Assembly: GCF_008931805.1 (NCBI RefSeq)
Contig: NZ_CP044399.1
Span: 2,963,370 to 3,027,369 of the forward strand
Direction of reading: 5' to 3'
Source of the DNA: Moritella marina ATCC 15381
GTDB taxonomy: Bacteria > Pseudomonadota > Gammaproteobacteria > Enterobacterales > Moritellaceae
Length of the DNA stretch: 64,000 bases
In this document: positions 52,088 through 64,000 of the stretch, one piece after another
Layout of the letters: each line of letters starts with the position of its first letter
How positions within the stretch are numbered: the stretch's first letter is position 1
The notes under the pieces: model-generated
Seen by the model: the letters and a program-made list of their open reading frames with translations, nothing else
Databases searched by the model: none
What the model was told of the DNA's origin: nothing
Position numbers and translations under genes: made by a program

Positions 52088-52324
52088 TTACCAATCATCA
52101 AATCCCCCGCCACTACTAAATGAATCATCGAAGCTACTTCCAAAACTATCATCGATGCCACTACTAAATGAATCATCGAAGCCACTTCCAAAACTATCAT
52201 CGATGCCACTACTAAATGAATCATCGATGCCACTACTTATGGAGTCGTGACTAAAATCAGTGCAACTTTCCTCGCTAGCCGAGGTATCAGAAAATAATCC
52301 TGTAAACCAACTAAAAATACTCAT
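52088..52324 (-). CDS. Small Ser/Gly/Asp repeat protein
   Basis: This 78-residue protein starts MSIFSWFTGLFSD and is then built from repeats of SSGIDDSF and GSGFDDSF, ending GGFDDW. The DNA repeats in 48-bp blocks (GAATCATCGA-type units). AGGGAG lies 6 bp before the ATG and a terminator follows, so I believe it is real. It is very acidic and low complexity; its function is unknown. Confidence 0.65.
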   Translation of the reverse strand: MSIFSWFTGLFSDTSASEESCTDFSHDSISSGIDDSFSSGIDDSFGSGFDDSFSSGIDDSFGSSFDDSFSSGGGFDDW

Positions 52325-52671
52325 ACGTTCTCCCTGTAAAATCTAACGTTTTGTATAGCAGGACGTCTCGATGTCCCACATCGATTCACCCTAGTAAGTA
52401 GTGACCAATATATAATTGATTCTATTTAATTTTTAATTCAGCTCAAGAAAAAATAAGACTCCGCTCTGATAAAAGAGTGATTCAACTAAGAAATCAACAA
52501 ATAATGCTATATAAAACCATCATTTATAATTAACCACGGCGGCACTTTGGCGGCATAGAATGGGTCGTATTGGACATATATGGACAGGGCTACCGATTAC
52601 AAAAAATTAAAACTGTAAATTCATCCAGTGGTGTTTTGGGCTTCAACTCCCCCCGCCCCTAGCAACATTTC

Positions 52672-52758
52672 CAACCCAATAAAAAAGCGAACCCTACTTT
52701 CGCAGGACTTGCTCTGATCACTTCATGTCTTTAGCGCTGTTACACGCTAAATTAACCA
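52672..52758. terminator. gcvP-downstream terminator, copy A
   Basis: AAAAAAGCGA, CCCT, loop, AGG, CTTGCTC forms a hairpin preceded by an A-run, and a second stem TTTAGCG / CGCTAAA follows. The 86-bp unit is almost identical to 53560-53646. Here it is still joined to gcvP coding sequence. Confidence 0.8.
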
Positions 52759-52761
52759 AAA

Positions 52762-52912
52762 TTAATCGTTATACGCTTCAATTTCTGGGCATTAGCAGAA
52801 TAAGTTACGGTCGCCATACACATCATCGATGCGGTTTACTGTAGGCCAGAACTTGTCTTTCTTCACGTAAGGTGCTGGGTAAACCGCCGTTTCATGGTCA
52901 TAAGCACGATCC
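52762..52912 (-). pseudogene. gcvP: 3' fragment of gcvP (glycine decarboxylase P protein)
   Basis: Minus-strand translation gives [15 protein letters not shown], then [18 protein letters not shown] and RNLFC, then a TAA, then CPEIEAYND and the ancestral TAA at 52762-52764. This is the very conserved GcvP C-terminus with a Ser-to-stop change (TCA to TAA is enough). Homology ends near 52912, so the remaining ~900 residues are absent. It is non-functional here; an intact gcvP presumably lies elsewhere, predicted beyond the right edge. Confidence 0.88.
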
Positions 52913-53077
52913 TGATTTAACTTTAGTTAATATAAGTTCTATTGTTAAAATAAATTAACGCCCCACAAAACACCTCTTAAGTAATACTTAGTGATAGACT
53001 TACATTTCAATATTAAAATGCACAATTTTTGTGCGTCATTTAACTATAAAACCATAAATTAAAAGGATTATTAATAA

Positions 53078-53542
53078 ATGAATGTGATTAAAACACTAAT
53101 GCTACTAAGCATGGCCTTCGTGATGACGGGCTGTGCGACAAGACTCGAAGCTACTGTATCTCCGGGTCAGTCATTAGATAATTTAAATCAAAGTAAAATT
53201 TATGTTGTACCTTTCGCACCAGATAAACGTAATTTACATTATATTATTGCAGATAAACTTACTTTACTCGGTCACCCTGCAACACCTCTAGATTCAAATG
53301 AAGTCCCAAAAGATGCTGATATTAGAATTACCTATGTAGATAACTGGCAGTGGGATATGACCAATTACTTAATCAAAATTAAAATTGATTTTAGGAATGC
53401 AGAAAGTAAACAATTATTAGTAACCGGAGAATCATTTAGAACATCATTAGTTCGTAAGGACCCTGATTATATGATTCAGGAAGCACTCGAGAAAATATTA
53501 CAAGAATCAGGTATTCCATATCATCACTTCCCTAAAGAATAA
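53078..53542 (+). CDS. Hypothetical lipoprotein (DUF4136-like)
   Basis: This is a 154-residue lipoprotein (AFVMTGC) with a beta-alpha layout (KIYVVPFAPDKRNLHY, ADIRITYVDNWQWDM) similar to DUF4136 or LptE-like envelope lipoproteins. AAAGG lies before ATG 53078. It converges on the terminator at 53560, which in the ancestral order would also have served gcvP. Confidence 0.7.
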   Translation: MNVIKTLMLLSMAFVMTGCATRLEATVSPGQSLDNLNQSKIYVVPFAPDKRNLHYIIADKLTLLGHPATPLDSNEVPKDADIRITYVDNWQWDMTNYLIKIKIDFRNAESKQLLVTGESFRTSLVRKDPDYMIQEALEKILQESGIPYHHFPKE

Positions 53543-53559
53543 CTGATTGTAAATTAATC

Positions 53560-53646
53560 CAACCCAACAAAAAAGCGAGCCCTACTTTCGCAGGACTCGC
53601 TCTAATCACTTCATGTCTTTAGCGCTGTTACACGCTAAATTAACCA
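53560..53646. terminator. gcvP-downstream terminator, copy B, abutting the Tn7-like end
   Basis: The same double hairpin as copy A (GCGAG / CTCGC, then TTTAGCG / CGCTAAA). Identity with copy A runs to AACCA at 53642-53646 and stops exactly where the transposon's TGT begins. AACCA is the predicted 5-bp target duplication. Confidence 0.85.
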
Positions 53647-53653
53647 TGTCGCC

Positions 53654-53743
53654 GTGTATTAAAAAAATAGACAAAGCTGCTCACGAAGCCTTATTGGTCT
53701 CTTCCAAAAGTAACTGTATAGTGTATTTAAATTTTAGACAAAC
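53654..53743. promoter_or_regulatory. Putative TnsB-binding repeats of the transposon left end
   Basis: Two 23-bp sites at 53654 and 53721 share GTGTATT, AAA and TAGACAAA at the same positions (18 of 23 identical). A weaker third (ATTGGACAATAA) lies near 53858. Repeats of about this size, spaced along the end, are how Tn7-family TnsB binds. Confidence 0.65.
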
Positions 53744-53812
53744 TTAATTTTATTACCGTTAAAAGGTAATCTGGTCATTGCTTTCACCACCTTTGTGAAT
53801 GGATGAAAGCTA

Positions 53813-53939: not shown

Positions 53940-55184
53940 TTACTTTTCTTTCCTCATGAAGAAATCATAATTCAAAAGACACTTTATCAGCTGATTTAGT
54001 GAATGCATTAAACGGTATGAATCAAGTATTTTACGAGTAAAGCCTAGAAAATATATCTCATTTGGTTTTTCTTGTTTCATACCTTCCTGCCTCGGGAAAT
54101 ATGTAATCATTTGAGAGACTTCATCGTACTCTGCTTTATAATGAGCCACAGCATTCCTCAACTGATTGTCCGCTACACTTTTTGAGATAGGCAACCAAGT
54201 ATCATCAATAAACTCTATTTTTTTACCAAATGGCTTATTGGCAAAGTCATTCAAACTTTTAATTTTATCATCTGAAAATTTATTATGATTCTTACGTTTT
54301 AGTAAGTTATTTACGCCCGCTACGAGTACAATTTGCCTAGATATTATCTCAGAAATATCTTTATAAAGGTCTTTGTAGTTTTTAAACTCGCGGGATGACA
54401 CCCTATATGGGACCTTTTCATCTCCACCAATATATTCTTTGTCGTAATCCAAAAACAATGCAGGTCTTAATGCAAGCTCTAACTCCAAAATCCTTGGGTA
54501 TATTTCGAAGCAGTCTTCCTGAAGGTTAAAGAGAAACTTTGATTCTATTAACTCTTTAACAAAAGAATCCATTTTATTTTTGTCGGTTGCGATAATTTCA
54601 TTGAATGTAGTCAGGTATAGGCTCACATCTTCTGAGTTAGATGTTGGTGTTGAAAAAGGATAAAAAACCTTCGCAATGATACAGTACATCATCATATTAA
54701 TATCACAGTCTTTAAATGATTTAGCAGGCTCATTAAACTCTTTGTCTGCAAGCTCAGAGAGGATTTTATTTCTTTTTCTTTTATGTAAATTTACTACCCG
54801 CTCAATCACCTCATGCTTTTTATACAGATCATTTAAAGCATTCAATCTAAAGTTATGAATTTCAAAATTTTCCTGACCTATTCGACCAATAGCCTTAAGG
54901 AAAGGAGTCTGCCCCATAACATAAGGTTCAAATGATACAGGGAAGTCAATATGAAGATCGATAAATGGATTTTCCCCTGTAAAATGCTCTTCTAATGGAT
55001 AACTTTCAGCCCCATACAATTTGGGCTTTTTCCCCTGTTCAACTGTTAGTTCGATTGCAGAACCACAAGAGGGACATGCAAACCTGAAAGGCTGAACATC
55101 ACGATTAGACATTCCAAACCGGCAGTCTACTAGCCCTTCACATGTTCGACACTTTAATCTTTCGTTAAAATTCACTATGTACAT
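53940..55184 (-). CDS. Zinc-ribbon protein with HEPN-like RxxxxH motif, probable defence cargo
   Basis: The protein has 414 residues. Cys12, Cys15, Cys37 and Cys40 form a CxxC/CxxC zinc ribbon. The middle is helical. Near the C-terminus R343-NAVA-H348, within long helices, matches the RxxxxH motif of HEPN ribonucleases. I do not recognise the family as a whole. It lies 273 bp after the helicase gene on the same strand inside the Tn7-like element; a nuclease triggered by infection is a reasonable guess, not shown. It could instead be an RNA-binding or sensor partner. Confidence 0.7.
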   Translation of the reverse strand: MYIVNFNERLKCRTCEGLVDCRFGMSNRDVQPFRFACPSCGSAIELTVEQGKKPKLYGAESYPLEEHFTGENPFIDLHIDFPVSFEPYVMGQTPFLKAIGRIGQENFEIHNFRLNALNDLYKKHEVIERVVNLHKRKRNKILSELADKEFNEPAKSFKDCDINMMMYCIIAKVFYPFSTPTSNSEDVSLYLTTFNEIIATDKNKMDSFVKELIESKFLFNLQEDCFEIYPRILELELALRPALFLDYDKEYIGGDEKVPYRVSSREFKNYKDLYKDISEIISRQIVLVAGVNNLLKRKNHNKFSDDKIKSLNDFANKPFGKKIEFIDDTWLPISKSVADNQLRNAVAHYKAEYDEVSQMITYFPRQEGMKQEKPNEIYFLGFTRKILDSYRLMHSLNQLIKCLLNYDFFMRKEK

Positions 55185-55457: not shown

Positions 55458-57989
55458 TTACTTATTTGCTTTTTTATAATTTTCTGAATATTTCTCTTTT
55501 AGAGATTCTAAATCCAATTCATGGGTATCAATAAATTTTTGAATTTCTTGGTTTCTTACGTCATGAATATTAAATTTTGCAAACTCTTTAAATAAATTCT
55601 TAACATTAACCTTCAATTTGTTTAATCTATTTTTTCTCATTATTTCAACATGATGAGTGAAATCTCCATGGTAAGAAAGCTTGTTTGTTGGGATTACCAA
55701 TATTCTTTTACATCGTTTATCGCCGTATTCACTTTCAAACCAGCCGCAATGCGAATTCATTTGGCCCGCTTCATGCTTTGATATTTCAGGTCTATCATCA
55801 TTTACTTCATTTTTACATTCTAATAAGAAGAAATAATCATCAACTCCACACCATAAATTATCAGGTCCTTTCTTAATTTCTTTATCTGGTCGTTGGCTTA
55901 AAAAGCCAATCATTTCACCTAATGCTTGCAATGAAAATTCAAATTTTTCAGAAGGCATTCCAAAGGATAAATTTTGAAGTATGCCGTCTACAGCTAACAT
56001 CATATTTTCATAAGTATCATGTTGGCTTATCCATTCTTTTATTCTGGTGATACGATTATGATTCATGTATTCAAGTTTTTTGTAACTAACGCCATCTATT
56101 GGTTTAAGTAGTTGAAGATTATTTTGAAAAGCTATTTTTTGAAAACTATTTGAATCAACTTTACTAGTTCTATATTTGTATCTTGCCATTAATTGCAAGT
56201 ACCAACCTCGCTCCAATTTATCTGAAGAGTGCTTGTCAATTAACTCTTGAGCTAATTGACAAGCCTTATCATACTCTCCAATTGAAAATAATTTTTCTGC
56301 ACGGTATTCTAACTCTAAGGATCTATAAACATTTTGTTTACCATCTCCTGCAACTAGCCCGTTCATCTCTTCTGAGTAGTAACTTTTCCATCCTTCATCT
56401 CTGTTGAGCATTTGATTGATGGTATCAACTAAAATTTGATACGAATTAACATTTGCTATGCCTTTAGAGTCTTCAATGGCAAACTCGGCAATTTGCATTC
56501 CAATATCAATTTGCTTTTGTGTCTGCGAAGAAAAATATTTTTTGGTATTTGGACTTTTAGCAAACTGGACTAAATCACCACCGACTAATAGTATCGCGCT
56601 ATAATCTTTTTCACCCCTAACACTTCTGCCTAACCCTTGCTCTACTTTTTGAGCAATTCTAATATTAATAATATCACTAGTAACGCGACAATCTTCTTCG
56701 TATCGATCTAACAATGAATCAAAGTAAGGTTTAGAATCTAAAATTAAAATACGGCATGCATCATCAGGGAGGTCTATTCCATCATATCTGTTAACAAACG
56801 TCATTGCCTTGTCAAACACCCCGTTTTTTAATTTTTGAACACTCTCAAAAAGATCTTCTGATTTAGCTACATGTGCACCGATACTTTCATATTGTTTTGT
56901 ACGATTAAAACTTGGAATTAAAGAAACAGCCCCAAAATTACGAGCCATAGGTTTCAAAATCCAACTAATAATTGCATCCCGATCTAATTCTTCATCAATA
57001 AGTGATGGTATTAATATCATTTTCTCCCCAGACCACTTCAACTCTTCATCACTTAACGGCTTGGATACAGATTCAACATCAAAACCAAGTCCCTTGATAA
57101 AAAAGGAGTCATCTTGCGTAGTAGCAGACATTAATACTCGATGGTTAGCATTACTGAAGCTACCAAAAGCATCAATAGGCATTAAAGTTGGTGATATTTC
57201 AAGACCATGACCTGAAATAAAGGCCTGACAGTTGGCTATATGATCTTTAATTACAGGCCAAGCAAAAGCGACCTCCCTTTCCTCTTTAGACTCTAAAATG
57301 GCATTAAGAACTTCAGCCTTCTTATCTTCCCAACTCCAGTACGGTATGGGAAGCATAGTATTGTATTCCCCACTTTCTATTTCTAAAAAGCTTCCTTCCC
57401 CTTGTTCTTTTAGATCGCCCTCAAAAATAGCTATTATTTTCTTATAAAGTTTATGATTTTTATTAACTTTAATTGTTAAGGAGTTTTTAATTGAATCAAT
57501 GCAAGCATGAGAATCGTCAAGTACGATCGTACCTACTGGCGTTGCTTTACTCCAGATTCCAAAAATAGTTTTACCATTAAATACTTTTTGGACATGGGTA
57601 ATGAGTATTTTTTTCCCTAATAGAAACTCATCAGGTAATTCTCTTCCATTTGAAAAATCACAAAAAGGAATACCAAATTTTATTGCTTCTTCCTTTACTT
57701 GCTTAGCTAAATATTTGTTTGGACAAACAAATACTCCCGGACCTTTTCCTTCATTTATTTTTGATTGTAAAATTAACAGCCCTATGAGAGTTTTCCCCTC
57801 ACCCGTATGGAGTTTAATTATTGTATTTTTTTGATCTCTTTTATCATTAAACCACTCTGTAAGTATTTTTTCTTGTGAGTCCCTTAGAGGACCAGCTTCA
57901 CTACGTCTATCTAATGAGTTATAAATTTCTGATGGTTCTATCTTTTTTTCAATTACTTTTTGTTTTAATCTTTTTGTGAAGTCGACCAT
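55458..57989 (-). CDS. DDSH-box superfamily 2 helicase with C-terminal PD-(D/E)xK-like nuclease, probable defence cargo
   Basis: The protein has 843 residues. Walker A HTGEGKTLIG is at 61-70, the DExH-type box is LDDSH at 157-161, motif III reads MSATT and motif VI QGLGRSVRGEKDY near 460. The motif VI form is close to RAD3-like helicases. A helical region (about 560-680) leads to a nuclease-like module: GPDNLW near 708-713 and LLECKNE at 722-728, the PD...ExK pattern. The whole resembles helicase-nuclease proteins of anti-phage systems, but I cannot match it to a named one. Both ATPase and nuclease residues appear intact. Confidence 0.82.
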   Translation of the reverse strand: MVDFTKRLKQKVIEKKIEPSEIYNSLDRRSEAGPLRDSQEKILTEWFNDKRDQKNTIIKLHTGEGKTLIGLLILQSKINEGKGPGVFVCPNKYLAKQVKEEAIKFGIPFCDFSNGRELPDEFLLGKKILITHVQKVFNGKTIFGIWSKATPVGTIVLDDSHACIDSIKNSLTIKVNKNHKLYKKIIAIFEGDLKEQGEGSFLEIESGEYNTMLPIPYWSWEDKKAEVLNAILESKEEREVAFAWPVIKDHIANCQAFISGHGLEISPTLMPIDAFGSFSNANHRVLMSATTQDDSFFIKGLGFDVESVSKPLSDEELKWSGEKMILIPSLIDEELDRDAIISWILKPMARNFGAVSLIPSFNRTKQYESIGAHVAKSEDLFESVQKLKNGVFDKAMTFVNRYDGIDLPDDACRILILDSKPYFDSLLDRYEEDCRVTSDIINIRIAQKVEQGLGRSVRGEKDYSAILLVGGDLVQFAKSPNTKKYFSSQTQKQIDIGMQIAEFAIEDSKGIANVNSYQILVDTINQMLNRDEGWKSYYSEEMNGLVAGDGKQNVYRSLELEYRAEKLFSIGEYDKACQLAQELIDKHSSDKLERGWYLQLMARYKYRTSKVDSNSFQKIAFQNNLQLLKPIDGVSYKKLEYMNHNRITRIKEWISQHDTYENMMLAVDGILQNLSFGMPSEKFEFSLQALGEMIGFLSQRPDKEIKKGPDNLWCGVDDYFFLLECKNEVNDDRPEISKHEAGQMNSHCGWFESEYGDKRCKRILVIPTNKLSYHGDFTHHVEIMRKNRLNKLKVNVKNLFKEFAKFNIHDVRNQEIQKFIDTHELDLESLKEKYSENYKKANK

Positions 57990-60215: not shown

Positions 60216-61109
60216 TTAATCAAAATTAAGATTAGCTCTCTGCCAATAAGCAAGTGCAATCAAATAAACAGGGTTCCTAACAAGGCTAGTTTGAGACCTG
60301 TGAATAAACATCATACTTAAAAAATCCCTCCTCCCTTCTAGTATTAAATTAGTGTAGTTTCTAAAAATATGTTTAATTAACTCAGGACCCAAATAAGATT
60401 CAAAATGTGGACTATATAGCTTGCATATAAATGACTTTATTGTTGAACTTTCTATGTTTAATCCTAAAAGTTCAATTAATTGAAATTTAATACTAGCCGC
60501 GATGGTAGGTCTTTCATGAGATATTTCATTAATTTTAAACACAAAGGATTGCCAAGAACTTAGCTCTTTAGATATATGTAACCGAATCGGTTCCCAAGCA
60601 TTTACTTGATGCGGTAGGGTTGCTTTGAAGAGGTTTCTAATTGATTTTTTCCCTTTCTCCAGTATACGATTATGTTTATAACACTCCAAAACACTCGGTA
60701 ATTGATGCCACGAATGCCAATAAGTGGTTCCATATTTATCTAAATCATATTCTCTACATTTTTTACAACTGTGCCAGCTAATATCAAAGCCAAAGCCAAA
60801 GTGCGTCATCTCACTAGCATGACCTAAATGACCCAATCCAAAATCATTTTTCTCAAGAATCTGTCCAACTGAAACTTGCCAAATTGGTATCACTGTATGA
60901 ATTCTAACTAAGCTATCACGTTCTTTAACCAGATTAATAACGCCCTTCGAAGCTGGCGTGAATACTTGATTGGAATAAAGGAATCGATCTTGAAAACCTA
61001 ATGTTTCTTGAAAATTTAAGAAAGAGCTATAACCTGATAACTTATAAGCTCGAACTAACCAGGAGAGAAGGTGCTCATTTGGTAATAGATTAAATACAGG
61101 TAAGTTCAT
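60216..61109 (-). CDS. tniQ: TniQ-family transposition protein
   Basis: This 297-residue protein has an N-terminal TniQ domain (LPNEHLLSWLVRAYKLSGY) and a zinc finger with HSCKKC and ECYKHN. It lacks the long C-terminal DNA-binding part of the neighbouring TnsD-like protein. It overlaps tnsC by 4 bp (ATGA). Two TniQ proteins in one element may mean one adaptor and one targeter, or two targeting pathways. Confidence 0.85.
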   Translation of the reverse strand: MNLPVFNLLPNEHLLSWLVRAYKLSGYSSFLNFQETLGFQDRFLYSNQVFTPASKGVINLVKERDSLVRIHTVIPIWQVSVGQILEKNDFGLGHLGHASEMTHFGFGFDISWHSCKKCREYDLDKYGTTYWHSWHQLPSVLECYKHNRILEKGKKSIRNLFKATLPHQVNAWEPIRLHISKELSSWQSFVFKINEISHERPTIAASIKFQLIELLGLNIESSTIKSFICKLYSPHFESYLGPELIKHIFRNYTNLILEGRRDFLSMMFIHRSQTSLVRNPVYLIALAYWQRANLNFD

Positions 61110-62506
61110 AAAGGAATACCCTCATAACCAAGATTATCGATAGGCATAGTAGAGGAATTCATTGCCAATTCTTTTTCTAATATCTTTACTGTTTGTTCTT
61201 CTTTTTTAGTCAACTTATACTCAGGTAAATAACGCTCAACTTGCTCATATATGGCTTTTGCTTCTTGACCTTTAAATCTATGTTCAGCTGCAATCTTTAA
61301 TAATTTTTTAACTTCCTTTTTTACTTTTTGATCAAGCTCAAAATTTGTATTCATTAAATCATCAAACGCATCAAACTTCCCATGCCTTAATGCAATAATT
61401 GCTGGTTTCATAATTGAAAATTTCGAATCAAAAATATGATCAAAGACTTCACCTGAAAAACACGGTAGACAGTCTCGAATACAATGCTTGTTTGTTTGTT
61501 CAATCAAGAAAAACAAACAATATGGTATGCCTTGTGTGAGGCTATAAATCTTATTTTCTAATGCGGGGGTTAACTTTATAAACTCAGGTAATAACTGATA
61601 ATCCCAAGCATATTCAACCAGTGACTTCCAATCAATATCCAGTTTAGAAAAGTTTACCCATTCATGCGGAATACCTAAACGACGAGCATTGGTAAATTCT
61701 TTTTCTGACAAGCGATTAGCTTTAGAAGTACCAATTTTCACTGTCGGAACATGAGCAACTTGAGTTAGTTGATCAAAAAGTGTAAAAATTTGTTTTCTTT
61801 CGTTTGGTGATGCAAAACAAATATTTTGAATTTCATCAAAGATAATCACGCCAATAAGTAACGTTGAACATAAGGTGATGACTTTGCTTATGCACCGCTT
61901 GCGAGTTAGCTTCTCGTACTGAATTTGATAGTCCGTTGTACCTAACACTTTATCAATTTCGCGAGCAATAATAAGGCATATCTCTTTACTATCGGCTTCG
62001 CCTGGAATATCTACTTTTATGTAAACAAACTGAAAAACATCTTTTCCCATTGGCCCCTCTTTAGGGTGCGATAAAACGGGGGGAATCAGAGTCAGTAGAC
62101 TATTGAATAGAGTTGTTTTACCCATGCCACTAAATCCCGTAAATTTCAGAGAAGGCGCTGTTGTTCTTGTCCTATGATAATTTTCAGTCGCCACTTGATT
62201 TTGCCAACGCTGTGTATCTTCGTTGAGAGGGTTACGTTCTTGATAGCCTTCTTTAAGAATATTAAGAAAATCACAGTAAATATCGTAATATTGAGACGTA
62301 GGCAAAACTGACTTCATTATATTGGCAGCTTTTTGCTCTAATGTTTCCACATCCAATTCAGCAATATTTTCAGGTAGCTCAACCACATCAACCACAGCAT
62401 CCCAAAAATCGCTTGCGCTAAGACGCATTGGTAATGTTTCGATAAATGGATTTCCTCGGTAATCACTATTTTTTGATAGCGTGTATTTAGCGATTTGAAA
62501 TGACAC
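61106..62506 (-). CDS. tnsC: TnsC AAA+ regulator of transposition
   Basis: This is a 466-residue AAA+ ATPase with Walker A GFSGMGKTTLFN near 124-135 and Walker B GVIIFDEIQNI near 220. A sensor-1 region (VKIGTSKANRL) follows. TnsC links the targeting protein to the transposase. It starts at GTG 62506 overlapping the tnsB stop (TAGTG). Confidence 0.92.
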   Translation of the reverse strand: MSFQIAKYTLSKNSDYRGNPFIETLPMRLSASDFWDAVVDVVELPENIAELDVETLEQKAANIMKSVLPTSQYYDIYCDFLNILKEGYQERNPLNEDTQRWQNQVATENYHRTRTTAPSLKFTGFSGMGKTTLFNSLLTLIPPVLSHPKEGPMGKDVFQFVYIKVDIPGEADSKEICLIIAREIDKVLGTTDYQIQYEKLTRKRCISKVITLCSTLLIGVIIFDEIQNICFASPNERKQIFTLFDQLTQVAHVPTVKIGTSKANRLSEKEFTNARRLGIPHEWVNFSKLDIDWKSLVEYAWDYQLLPEFIKLTPALENKIYSLTQGIPYCLFFLIEQTNKHCIRDCLPCFSGEVFDHIFDSKFSIMKPAIIALRHGKFDAFDDLMNTNFELDQKVKKEVKKLLKIAAEHRFKGQEAKAIYEQVERYLPEYKLTKKEEQTVKILEKELAMNSSTMPIDNLGYEGIPL

Positions 62507-64000
62507 TATGATTTCCTTCTTTGACGTCTTTTTTCAGCACTTTTCGCTGCAAAAATTGTTGAAATAGTATTCTCAGGATGTTGTTTTTCTGCCGGTACGG
62601 GCGATAGATTTTCTACCTGATTATCTTCAACTCCAAGCATTTGATTAAATTGTTTTTTAGAAGCAACTATTTCACGCTGAATAGCTTCCTCCCTATGCGT
62701 AGAGATATCCTGTGTATTAGCCTGGTTTACATTAATCGGAACTTGTTCATGCTTGGCTGAGATAATTAAATTACTAGCCGTAATACGCGTTTCACTTTGC
62801 TTTTCATCATGTTTTTCTTTAAGCTTTTCATGCACAACTGATTGCTTATTCTTATCATATTGAATTGCTTCATCAGACATATTTTGATACATCATATCTG
62901 AACTTTGCAGTATCGCAGGATAGAAGCCTTCTGGTGTTTCAATATAAATAGTACTCAAGGAGTAACGCATAAATCGACAAGGGAGTTTAGATAAATGCTT
63001 ACGACTTTCACGATCCTGTAACCCTTTATCTAGTGTCCATTCACATGTGTATTTAAGTCCTTTAGTCGATTGTCTCACCTCTCTACGGCCTAAATACCTA
63101 CCTTTCAAAAATAAATGGTCTCGATGTATAGTTACCTCACCAACCTCAAGTAAGCTTTGATAAAGTTCATTTTCATCAACAGGTTTCAAGTAACCGGGAC
63201 GATTTTTAAGTCCCCATTTAAATTTATCCATCGGAATTGGGTCGACTCCATCAAGCCTCATTTCTTTGCTGAGAGGTAGCCCTTCTATTGGATAATAATT
63301 GTTATACCTAGTAATGAAATCGATAAGTACTTGGTACAATTCTCGGATATTTAGTAATGCATTTTTACGAAGACGTCTTTGTATATATTCCGCAATATTC
63401 TTTTTTCCAGCTCCAGGAACCACGCCATATAAAAAATCCTCAAGCGATTTATGTCTTCGCTCTACAAGACCCTTTTGCTGCGAGTTACCTTCGGTGTTAT
63501 ATATCTGTTCAATTTGCGCATCTTTACTTAATGAACGTTCCAATTCAGCCTTGAATTCTGCATTATCGACAAAAATCATCCGGCACTTTCCAGAAATATC
63601 CCATGGCTCGGTTAGCTTTACACCAATCTCTTCACAGAATTTATTTTTATCCCTAAAGGCTACCAGAATAACTTCGCGAGCCGTATGTGCAGAGGCTTTA
63701 GCAAAGGTAAGCAGTAAGGCAACCCAAGTACGAGAAAACATGTCAATAACAGAATAACAAGTGGGTTTACCCATACGTATAGTTCTCGTTTTATCAAACT
63801 CATCAACAAGTTCTACGTTGAGAGGCGTTTCATCTACTTGGTACACATGACCGGGGCCTTCTGCATAGAACTCTTCGATATTACCTTTTAACCCTTTGTG
63901 ATCTTTATTGAATTTATCCGTTTCTCCTTGTGCGGTACGAATAACATCTACGTGCCCCTTAACGTAAGCTCGGGCATAATTTTTGAATTGCTCATAGCTA
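62506..64000 (-). CDS. tnsB: TnsB DDE transposase (5' end off window)
   Basis: The frame is open to 64000 and continues beyond, so the visible part is about 498 residues. The catalytic triad is present: Asp in VYQVDETPLNVEL, Asp in RMIFVDNAEFKAEL and Glu in KGLVERRHKSLEDFLY. A C-terminal Mu-like beta-barrel (about 240-330) and a long charged tail (about 340-498) that may contact TnsC follow. The N-terminal DNA-binding domains are missing from the window. Confidence 0.93.
   Translation of the reverse strand, partial: SYEQFKNYARAYVKGHVDVIRTAQGETDKFNKDHKGLKGNIEEFYAEGPGHVYQVDETPLNVELVDEFDKTRTIRMGKPTCYSVIDMFSRTWVALLLTFAKASAHTAREVILVAFRDKNKFCEEIGVKLTEPWDISGKCRMIFVDNAEFKAELERSLSKDAQIEQIYNTEGNSQQKGLVERRHKSLEDFLYGVVPGAGKKNIAEYIQRRLRKNALLNIRELYQVLIDFITRYNNYYPIEGLPLSKEMRLDGVDPIPMDKFKWGLKNRPGYLKPVDENELYQSLLEVGEVTIHRDHLFLKGRYLGRREVRQSTKGLKYTCEWTLDKGLQDRESRKHLSKLPCRFMRYSLSTIYIETPEGFYPAILQSSDMMYQNMSDEAIQYDKNKQSVVHEKLKEKHDEKQSETRITASNLIISAKHEQVPINVNQANTQDISTHREEAIQREIVASKKQFNQMLGVEDNQVENLSPVPAEKQHPENTISTIFAAKSAEKRRQRRKS

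Follow-up and report, generated by a model that had tools for sequence, protein, structure and literature searches.

A Tn7-like transposon just downstream of gcvP in Moritella marina, and gcvP as an apparent attachment gene

We consider it about 90% probable that Moritella marina carries a 16.8-kb Tn7-like transposon just downstream of gcvP, the gene for the glycine cleavage P-protein, and that this element homes to its site through a TnsD protein that would read the 3′ coding DNA of the gene. Related elements lie beside gcvP in many other bacteria, at a near-constant distance from a set of conserved gcvP codons, and gcvP is apparently a real, undescribed attachment gene.

The element and its two ends

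The window, a stretch of 64,000 nucleotides, corresponds to G000:C2:2963370-3027369 of a 4.76-Mb genome. An 89-bp sequence occurs in it twice, at 52670-52758 (copy A) and 53558-53646 (copy B), with 96% identity and with AACCA terminal in both copies. A reading made from the sequence alone had described two copies of gcvP-downstream sequence that agree up to AACCA, and the positions are as it claimed. Copy A continues after AACCA with AAATTAATCG into the gcvP 3′ end, while copy B continues from 53647 with TGTCGCCGTGTATTAAAAAAATAGACAAAG, a TGT start that leads, as also claimed, into two 23-bp repeats (53654-53676 and 53721-53743). One part of that reading needs qualification, since the DNA next to copy A is indeed gcvP sequence but belongs to a pseudogene fragment (52762-52923) that spans 53 codons, is interrupted by one stop, carries a terminator copy of its own, and lies about 17.6 kb away from the intact gene. 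The neighborhood also contains tandem 24-bp repeats outside the element (52109-52246) and, between the two terminator copies, a short open reading frame (ORF) of 154 amino acids (53078-53542) that looks lipoprotein-like by eye and gave no Pfam match and no DNA match in 12 other near-gcvP stretches of genus relatives.

The following features of the window belong to the insertion and its flank.

53558..53641, minus strand: native gcvP-downstream sequence with terminator (copy B), parted from gcvP by the insertion, as judged from relatives without the element
53643..53646, no strand: target repeat ACCA at the left end (AACCA, 53642-53646, if 5 bp); the same ACCA follows the right end beside intact gcvP
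53647..53743, plus strand: left transposon end, with a TGT terminus and two 23-bp TnsB-site-like repeats (53654-53676, 53721-53743); 27 of its outermost 30 bp agree with the inverted right end
53940..55184, minus strand: cargo ORF, 414 aa, with no Pfam, PADLOC, or NCBIfam match at the limits used
55458..57989, minus strand: cargo ORF, 843 aa, a DEAD/ResIII helicase and, by its PADLOC label PDC-S28, a candidate gene for phage defense
58765..60201, minus strand: TnsD-like target selector, 478 aa, with an N-terminal TniQ domain (Pfam, 6e-18) and a C-terminal TnsD domain (Pfam, 5e-13)
60216..61109, minus strand: small TniQ-like protein, 297 aa (weak Pfam TniQ match under the cut-off, E 0.006; PADLOC TniQ, 2.6e-07)
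61106..62506, minus strand: TnsC-like AAA ATPase, 466 aa (Pfam AAA_22, TniB)
62506..64000 and on to about 64749 beyond the window, minus strand: TnsB-like transposase, 747 aa (match to solved Tn7 TnsB, E 1e-25)

The selector assignment is strengthened by a profile of TnsD relatives, which matches the solved Tn7 TnsD with an E value of 2.6e-25. TnsB gave no Pfam or NCBIfam match, and the small TniQ had no match among solved structures. Compared with the closest relative, in genome G007, the small TniQ is 54% identical and TnsA, TnsB, TnsC, and TnsD are 76-81% identical, so that TniQ changes faster.

To the right of position 64000, the sequence-only reading had proposed, as a check, a search for tnsA, an ACA end, AACCA, and then an intact gcvP. 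Beyond the window lie, in order, the rest of tnsB, tnsA (C2:3028105-3028968; product identified by Pfam), a gene for a 1,376-aa protein, the right end, and intact gcvP (G000:C2:3033853-3036759), the identity of which was confirmed by NCBIfam TIGR00461. Only the flanking repeat departs from expectation: the flanks have exactly TGGT in common, and the 5-bp TGGTT/AACCA requires the right end's first T to be assigned to the target. Read in the gcvP sense, the right end is TGTAGCGGTGCATTAAAAAAATAGACAAAG and starts 7 bp past the intact gcvP stop; 27 of the 30 terminal positions are identical between left and right ends. The element measures 16,830 bp, from window position 53647 to 6.5 kb past the window edge, and its tnsA-side end faces gcvP, as in Tn7-like elements. 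With both ends, the tns genes, and an intact gcvP found in the same genome, the proposal of a Tn7-like transposon inserted just after gcvP is borne out.

Homologues of TnsA, TnsB, and TnsC in one gene cluster, together with a TniQ/TnsD-family selector, are the features by which Tn7-like elements are recognized. The ends likewise run from TGT to ACA with several TnsB-site-like repeats in inverted orientation, as judged from their sequence only. Insertion at glmS, which marks Tn7 in the strict sense, is not seen; the element sits at gcvP. Moreover, relatives without the element (e.g., G004 and G005) carry copy-B-type sequence directly 3′ of the gcvP stop. In G004, TAATTTTGGT joins directly to TAATTTAGCG, which is the sequence of the window genome minus the element and minus one copy of the repeat.

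The 1,376-aa gene (L004:2619-6749, beyond the window end) adjoins the right end and is PD-Lambda-4_A-like according to PADLOC. PADLOC contains both known and candidate defense systems; the genes labeled PDC-S28 and PD-Lambda-4_A are candidate defense cargo. The PD-Lambda-4_A-like gene has a counterpart of about 65% identity at the corresponding position in G081, although TnsB of that element shows only about 26% identity, and it is also present in L107; it is a putative cargo gene common to different elements at the same site.

Recurrence of related elements at gcvP

A survey of genomes for tns clusters beside gcvP, which the sequence-only reading had suggested, found that TnsD relatives repeatedly adjoin this gene. 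A TnsD search of 394 genomes of the order, which favors close relatives, yielded 31 matches in 30 genomes. Fifteen of the 31 lie less than 20 kb from gcvP on the same strand, with gcvP on the tnsA side (G000, G007, G346, G203, G081, G151, G078, G039, G002, G010, G029, G364, G034, G287, and G118), where about 0.07 would be expected at random positions. Three more are 29-45 kb from gcvP (G311, G320, and a second match in G039). Among the 13 others, seven adjoin a yhiN-type (HI0933-like) gene directly beyond tnsA, and one adjoins glmS. The HI0933-like gene beside these control elements we take to be yhiN. Contig ends limit three matches (G315, where the contig stops right after tnsA, G025, and G181). 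The last two, G052 and G164, have TnsDs of the gcvP group in elements that are at none of gcvP, yhiN, and glmS; these elements (L259 in G164; L026 and L068 in G052) are possible products of a second targeting route.

A second sample, picked by TnsD similarity, took 45 of 80 named loci, for which 43 genomes were searched. In 17 of the 43, gcvP shares a contig with the TnsD locus and lies 9-26 kb from it in the direction of tnsA; these come from Pseudoalteromonas, Colwellia, an Alteromonadaceae metagenome-assembled genome, Neptuniibacter, Aliagarivorans, Alteromonas, Photobacterium, Shewanella, Oceanimonas, and Vibrio. At least 3 of the 17 overlap with genomes of the order survey, and three have a short TnsD frame (L118, L126, and L133). 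Plasmid copies of the TnsD were also sought by tblastn and set aside: all 204 records were below 60% identity, the 30 records listed being about 25% identical TnsDs of enterobacteria, with four Alteromonas records among the remaining 174.

The sequence downstream of 54 gcvP genes, mostly from genomes with a TnsD match or of the window's genus, was inspected for transposon ends. An automatic rule counted a site as occupied when two or more transposon-end repeats fell within 110 bp of the stop, which was the case for 30 of the 54. It overlooked G002, later delimited by a far-end scan, and inspection by eye added G025 and G401 as well as remnants in G001, G003, and G008. By eye, the end repeats sort into seven sequence families.

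A far-end scan of 20 gcvP regions delimited 13 elements, each with an end match of 16-24 of 24 positions and a 5-bp duplication; they are 15.1-42.8 kb long and begin 5-12 bp past the gcvP stop. The scan accepted only regions that had TG/CA ends and an exact 5-bp repeat, so the independent evidence here, and the part that carries the weight, is the agreement between the two ends. The weakest accepted match is that of G151 (16 of 24), and the best rejected one among the candidates listed scored 15 (G002). The search for an exact 5-bp duplication failed in 7 of the 20 regions (G000, G007, G346, G010, G431, G311, and G287). A looser scan delimited G000, G007, and G311 with four exact shared bases, or five when the start of the right end is set one base later; for G010, a GGTGA duplication would require loss of the terminal TG from the right end, which is our reading, and G346, G431, and G287 stayed undelimited in that scan. 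Directly beyond the far end, G002, G203, G424, G320, G039, G311, and G431 show at least one extra end-like repeat, indicating that elements stack at gcvP, presumably with the youngest adjoining the gene.

An insertion this close to the stop severs gcvP from its terminator. A hairpin followed by T's is found within 200 bp of the stop at 29 of the 30 occupied sites, whereas dinucleotide shuffling, repeated eight times, gave 1-4 of 30. Such hairpins are also present at 19 of the 24 gcvP genes outside the 30, where they are presumably the gene's own terminator, and the transposon end therefore seems to stand in for the severed terminator. For ends of the window's type (L004:6762-6856), a strong hairpin arises from pairing of the second repeat with its inverse and leads into a run of T's. 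The second repeat, a presumed transposase-binding site, may double as the gcvP terminator.

Phylogenetic trees place the gcvP elements in a small number of groups. On the TnsD tree (58 rows), the gcvP rows fall into two well-supported groups and yhiN-type rows into another. Group 1 has 25 rows, of which 20 are at gcvP, three are site-limited (G025, L107, and L117), and two are elsewhere (G164 and G052, the latter entered in the tree as a site-limited row). Group 2 has 11 rows, nine at gcvP and two site-limited (G181 and L144). Group 3 has nine rows, six at yhiN plus G315, L128, and L151; G015, which is at yhiN, forms a long branch beside it. The gcvP rows are not one clade on this tree, which requires nine label changes when contig-limited rows are counted apart. 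On the TnsB tree, the gcvP rows and two unplaced rows lie on one side of a branch with a support of 94, and on this evidence gcvP homing may have arisen only once. An exchange of TnsD and TnsB modules was considered, in that the TnsB tree sets the window's lineage apart from the rest of the gcvP elements, but an AU test fails to reject the TnsD grouping (p 0.118); in the reverse test, the TnsD data reject the TnsB arrangement. Because of this p value, and because the gcvP rows are already on one side of the TnsB branch, we do not claim module exchange.

Distance from the gcvP codons and the mode of targeting

The elements keep their distance from gcvP codons rather than from the stop. In 18 of 18 elements, the right end lies 49-53 bp past the GDRN codons (standard deviation [sd], 1.04; 49 bp in the window's element), compared with 5-12 bp past the gcvP stop (sd, 1.93). 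The right-end starts in this set were placed by us from the end scans, and two of them (G010 and G431) come without a confirmed duplication. The distance from the stop offsets the length of the C terminus, such that a longer C terminus goes with a shorter distance (r = -0.88). When pairs were permuted, a spread this small arose in 3 of 100,000 rounds, or 2 of 100,000 without three near-identical Vibrio rows, although kinship among the genomes makes such P values overstate independence. Similarly, 29 of 30 sites with recognizable repeats have the first repeat 67-74 bp past GDRN. The outlier, G346 (L233), has it 105 bp past GDRN and its right end about 45 bp past the stop, against the usual 5-12. 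The usual figures recur at two gcvP fragments detached from the intact gene, each with a transposon right end immediately after it: G174 has 51 bp to the right end and 69 bp to the first repeat, and G395 has 71 bp to the first repeat, as though a former insertion site had been displaced.

A near-constant distance from GDRN combined with a varying distance from the stop means that the insertion is measured from within the coding sequence, which in turn implies a protein that reads gcvP coding DNA, as TnsD reads glmS. The TnsD footprint of Tn7 in glmS extends from +23 to +58 relative to the point of insertion (PMC2918618, part of the text). Projected onto gcvP of the window genome, this footprint covers the codons GDRNLFCSCPPI by our arithmetic, and by analogy we infer that TnsD binds these codons. 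The earlier suggestion that the TnsD-like protein targets gcvP is thereby supported by the survey and by the near-fixed codon distance, with TnsD as the probable direct contact.

We propose the following mechanism. The C-terminal part of TnsD would bind the conserved stretch of coding sequence close to the 3′ end of gcvP that includes the codons for GDRNLxCxC, and its TniQ domain would recruit TnsC. TnsA and TnsB would then carry out insertion about 51 bp downstream of the GDRN codons, with the tnsA side facing gcvP. The gene is left intact, and the hairpin and T-run in the transposon end probably substitute for the severed terminator. Comparison among genomes shows precise insertion, in one orientation, with duplications and a near-constant codon distance; that TnsD itself makes the contact, and that the end acts as a terminator, we infer from this pattern. 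The small TniQ may be needed too.

An unlikely variant holds that TnsD does not read gcvP on its own and that the small TniQ takes part, either alongside TnsD or, in its place, with a host factor. An ORF for a small TniQ (291-345 aa) adjoins TnsD in 23 of the 24 gcvP regions where a TnsD was identified (in the exception, G311, it was possibly missed), whereas tnsD directly follows tnsC in the seven yhiN elements, G315, and the glmS element. Nevertheless, G052 and G164 carry a small TniQ away from gcvP as well, and TniQ is the protein that diverges fastest between the two closest elements (54% versus 76-81%). In the accessible text of PMC10293859, moreover, CyCAST homing needed TnsD and was lowered by TniQ.

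Homologous recombination offers a different account, in which gcvP would be a general island hotspot where flanking gcvP DNA recombines, without dedicated targeting. Seven of 55 genomes, the window genome included, carry additional pieces of the gcvP 3′ end farther downstream, on the contig and strand of the gene itself, and recombination at the gcvP locus thus does occur. Also, gcvP appears in a table of genomic-island integration loci of Photorhabdus and Xenorhabdus (PMC3091717, seen in part), which lists it without Tn7. Recombination alone, however, gives no matching ends with short duplications, and it accounts neither for the near-constant gcvP-codon distance across different end families nor for the association with particular TnsD groups, and we regard it as very improbable.

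Least credible of all is RNA-guided targeting of gcvP by a CRISPR-associated system with the small TniQ as partner: CRISPR-associated Tn7-like elements do use such proteins (PMC11406308, in part), but Pfam found no cas family in the eight element proteins scanned, PADLOC, run on four of the eight, gave CRISPR labels only on TniQ models and a weak DinG-type helicase match, and a direct-repeat search found no CRISPR-like array in the element.

Relation to known elements and significance

In its tnsABCD genes, its TnsD and TnsB matches to solved Tn7 proteins, its insertion shortly past a stop codon, and its conserved 3′ coding DNA target, the element resembles Tn7. It differs in sitting at gcvP, in having a small TniQ, and in inserting 5-12 bp past the stop, as opposed to about 20 bp at glmS for Tn7 in the accessible descriptions. 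Tn6230-type elements, which target yhiN (PMC11406308, in part), share tnsABC and one TnsD with it, and the yhiN controls, which may belong to this type, are the nearest control group in the same search. These controls differ in their target, in lacking a small TniQ, and in forming separate TnsD and TnsB groups.

A parallel in gene content is a set of 998 reported dual TniQ-TnsD loci (Faure et al. 2023, PMC10293859, in part), which combine a large TnsD and a small TniQ in one locus, as does the present element. Section 11 of that paper gives no attachment gene for the non-CRISPR dual loci, and the present work ties one group of such elements to gcvP. The TnsD-type targets named in a review, in its accessible portion, are glmS, parE, and tRNA genes, along with yhiN, for which the molecular details are described as unknown (PMC11406308). 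An island inside gcvP in Pseudomonas aeruginosa appears in PMC12607901, the accessible text of which is without the word Tn7. Searches of open-access literature, covering main texts as distinct from supplements and some papers in part, did not find gcvP as a Tn7 attachment gene, and word searches of three main texts (PMC10293859, PMC8649781, and PMC11406308) turned up no mention of gcv or gcvP.

A broader but rather unlikely picture can also be drawn. Here, gcvP would be an old, major landing site for diverse dual TniQ-TnsD transposons across seven or more families of the order and in Neptuniibacter outside it. Two TniQ-family proteins would jointly read gcvP, the transposon end would restore the terminator, insertions would stack into arrays of defense genes, and displaced 3′ ends would serve as spare docking sites.

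Few genes are known as TnsD-type targets, and gcvP would add one to a short list. The gcvP 3′ site is a possible neutral insertion site beside a conserved gene, and it provides a defined place to look for new defense genes. Diverged elements use this further target at a codon distance that can be measured, and it also offers another system for learning how TnsD proteins choose their DNA.
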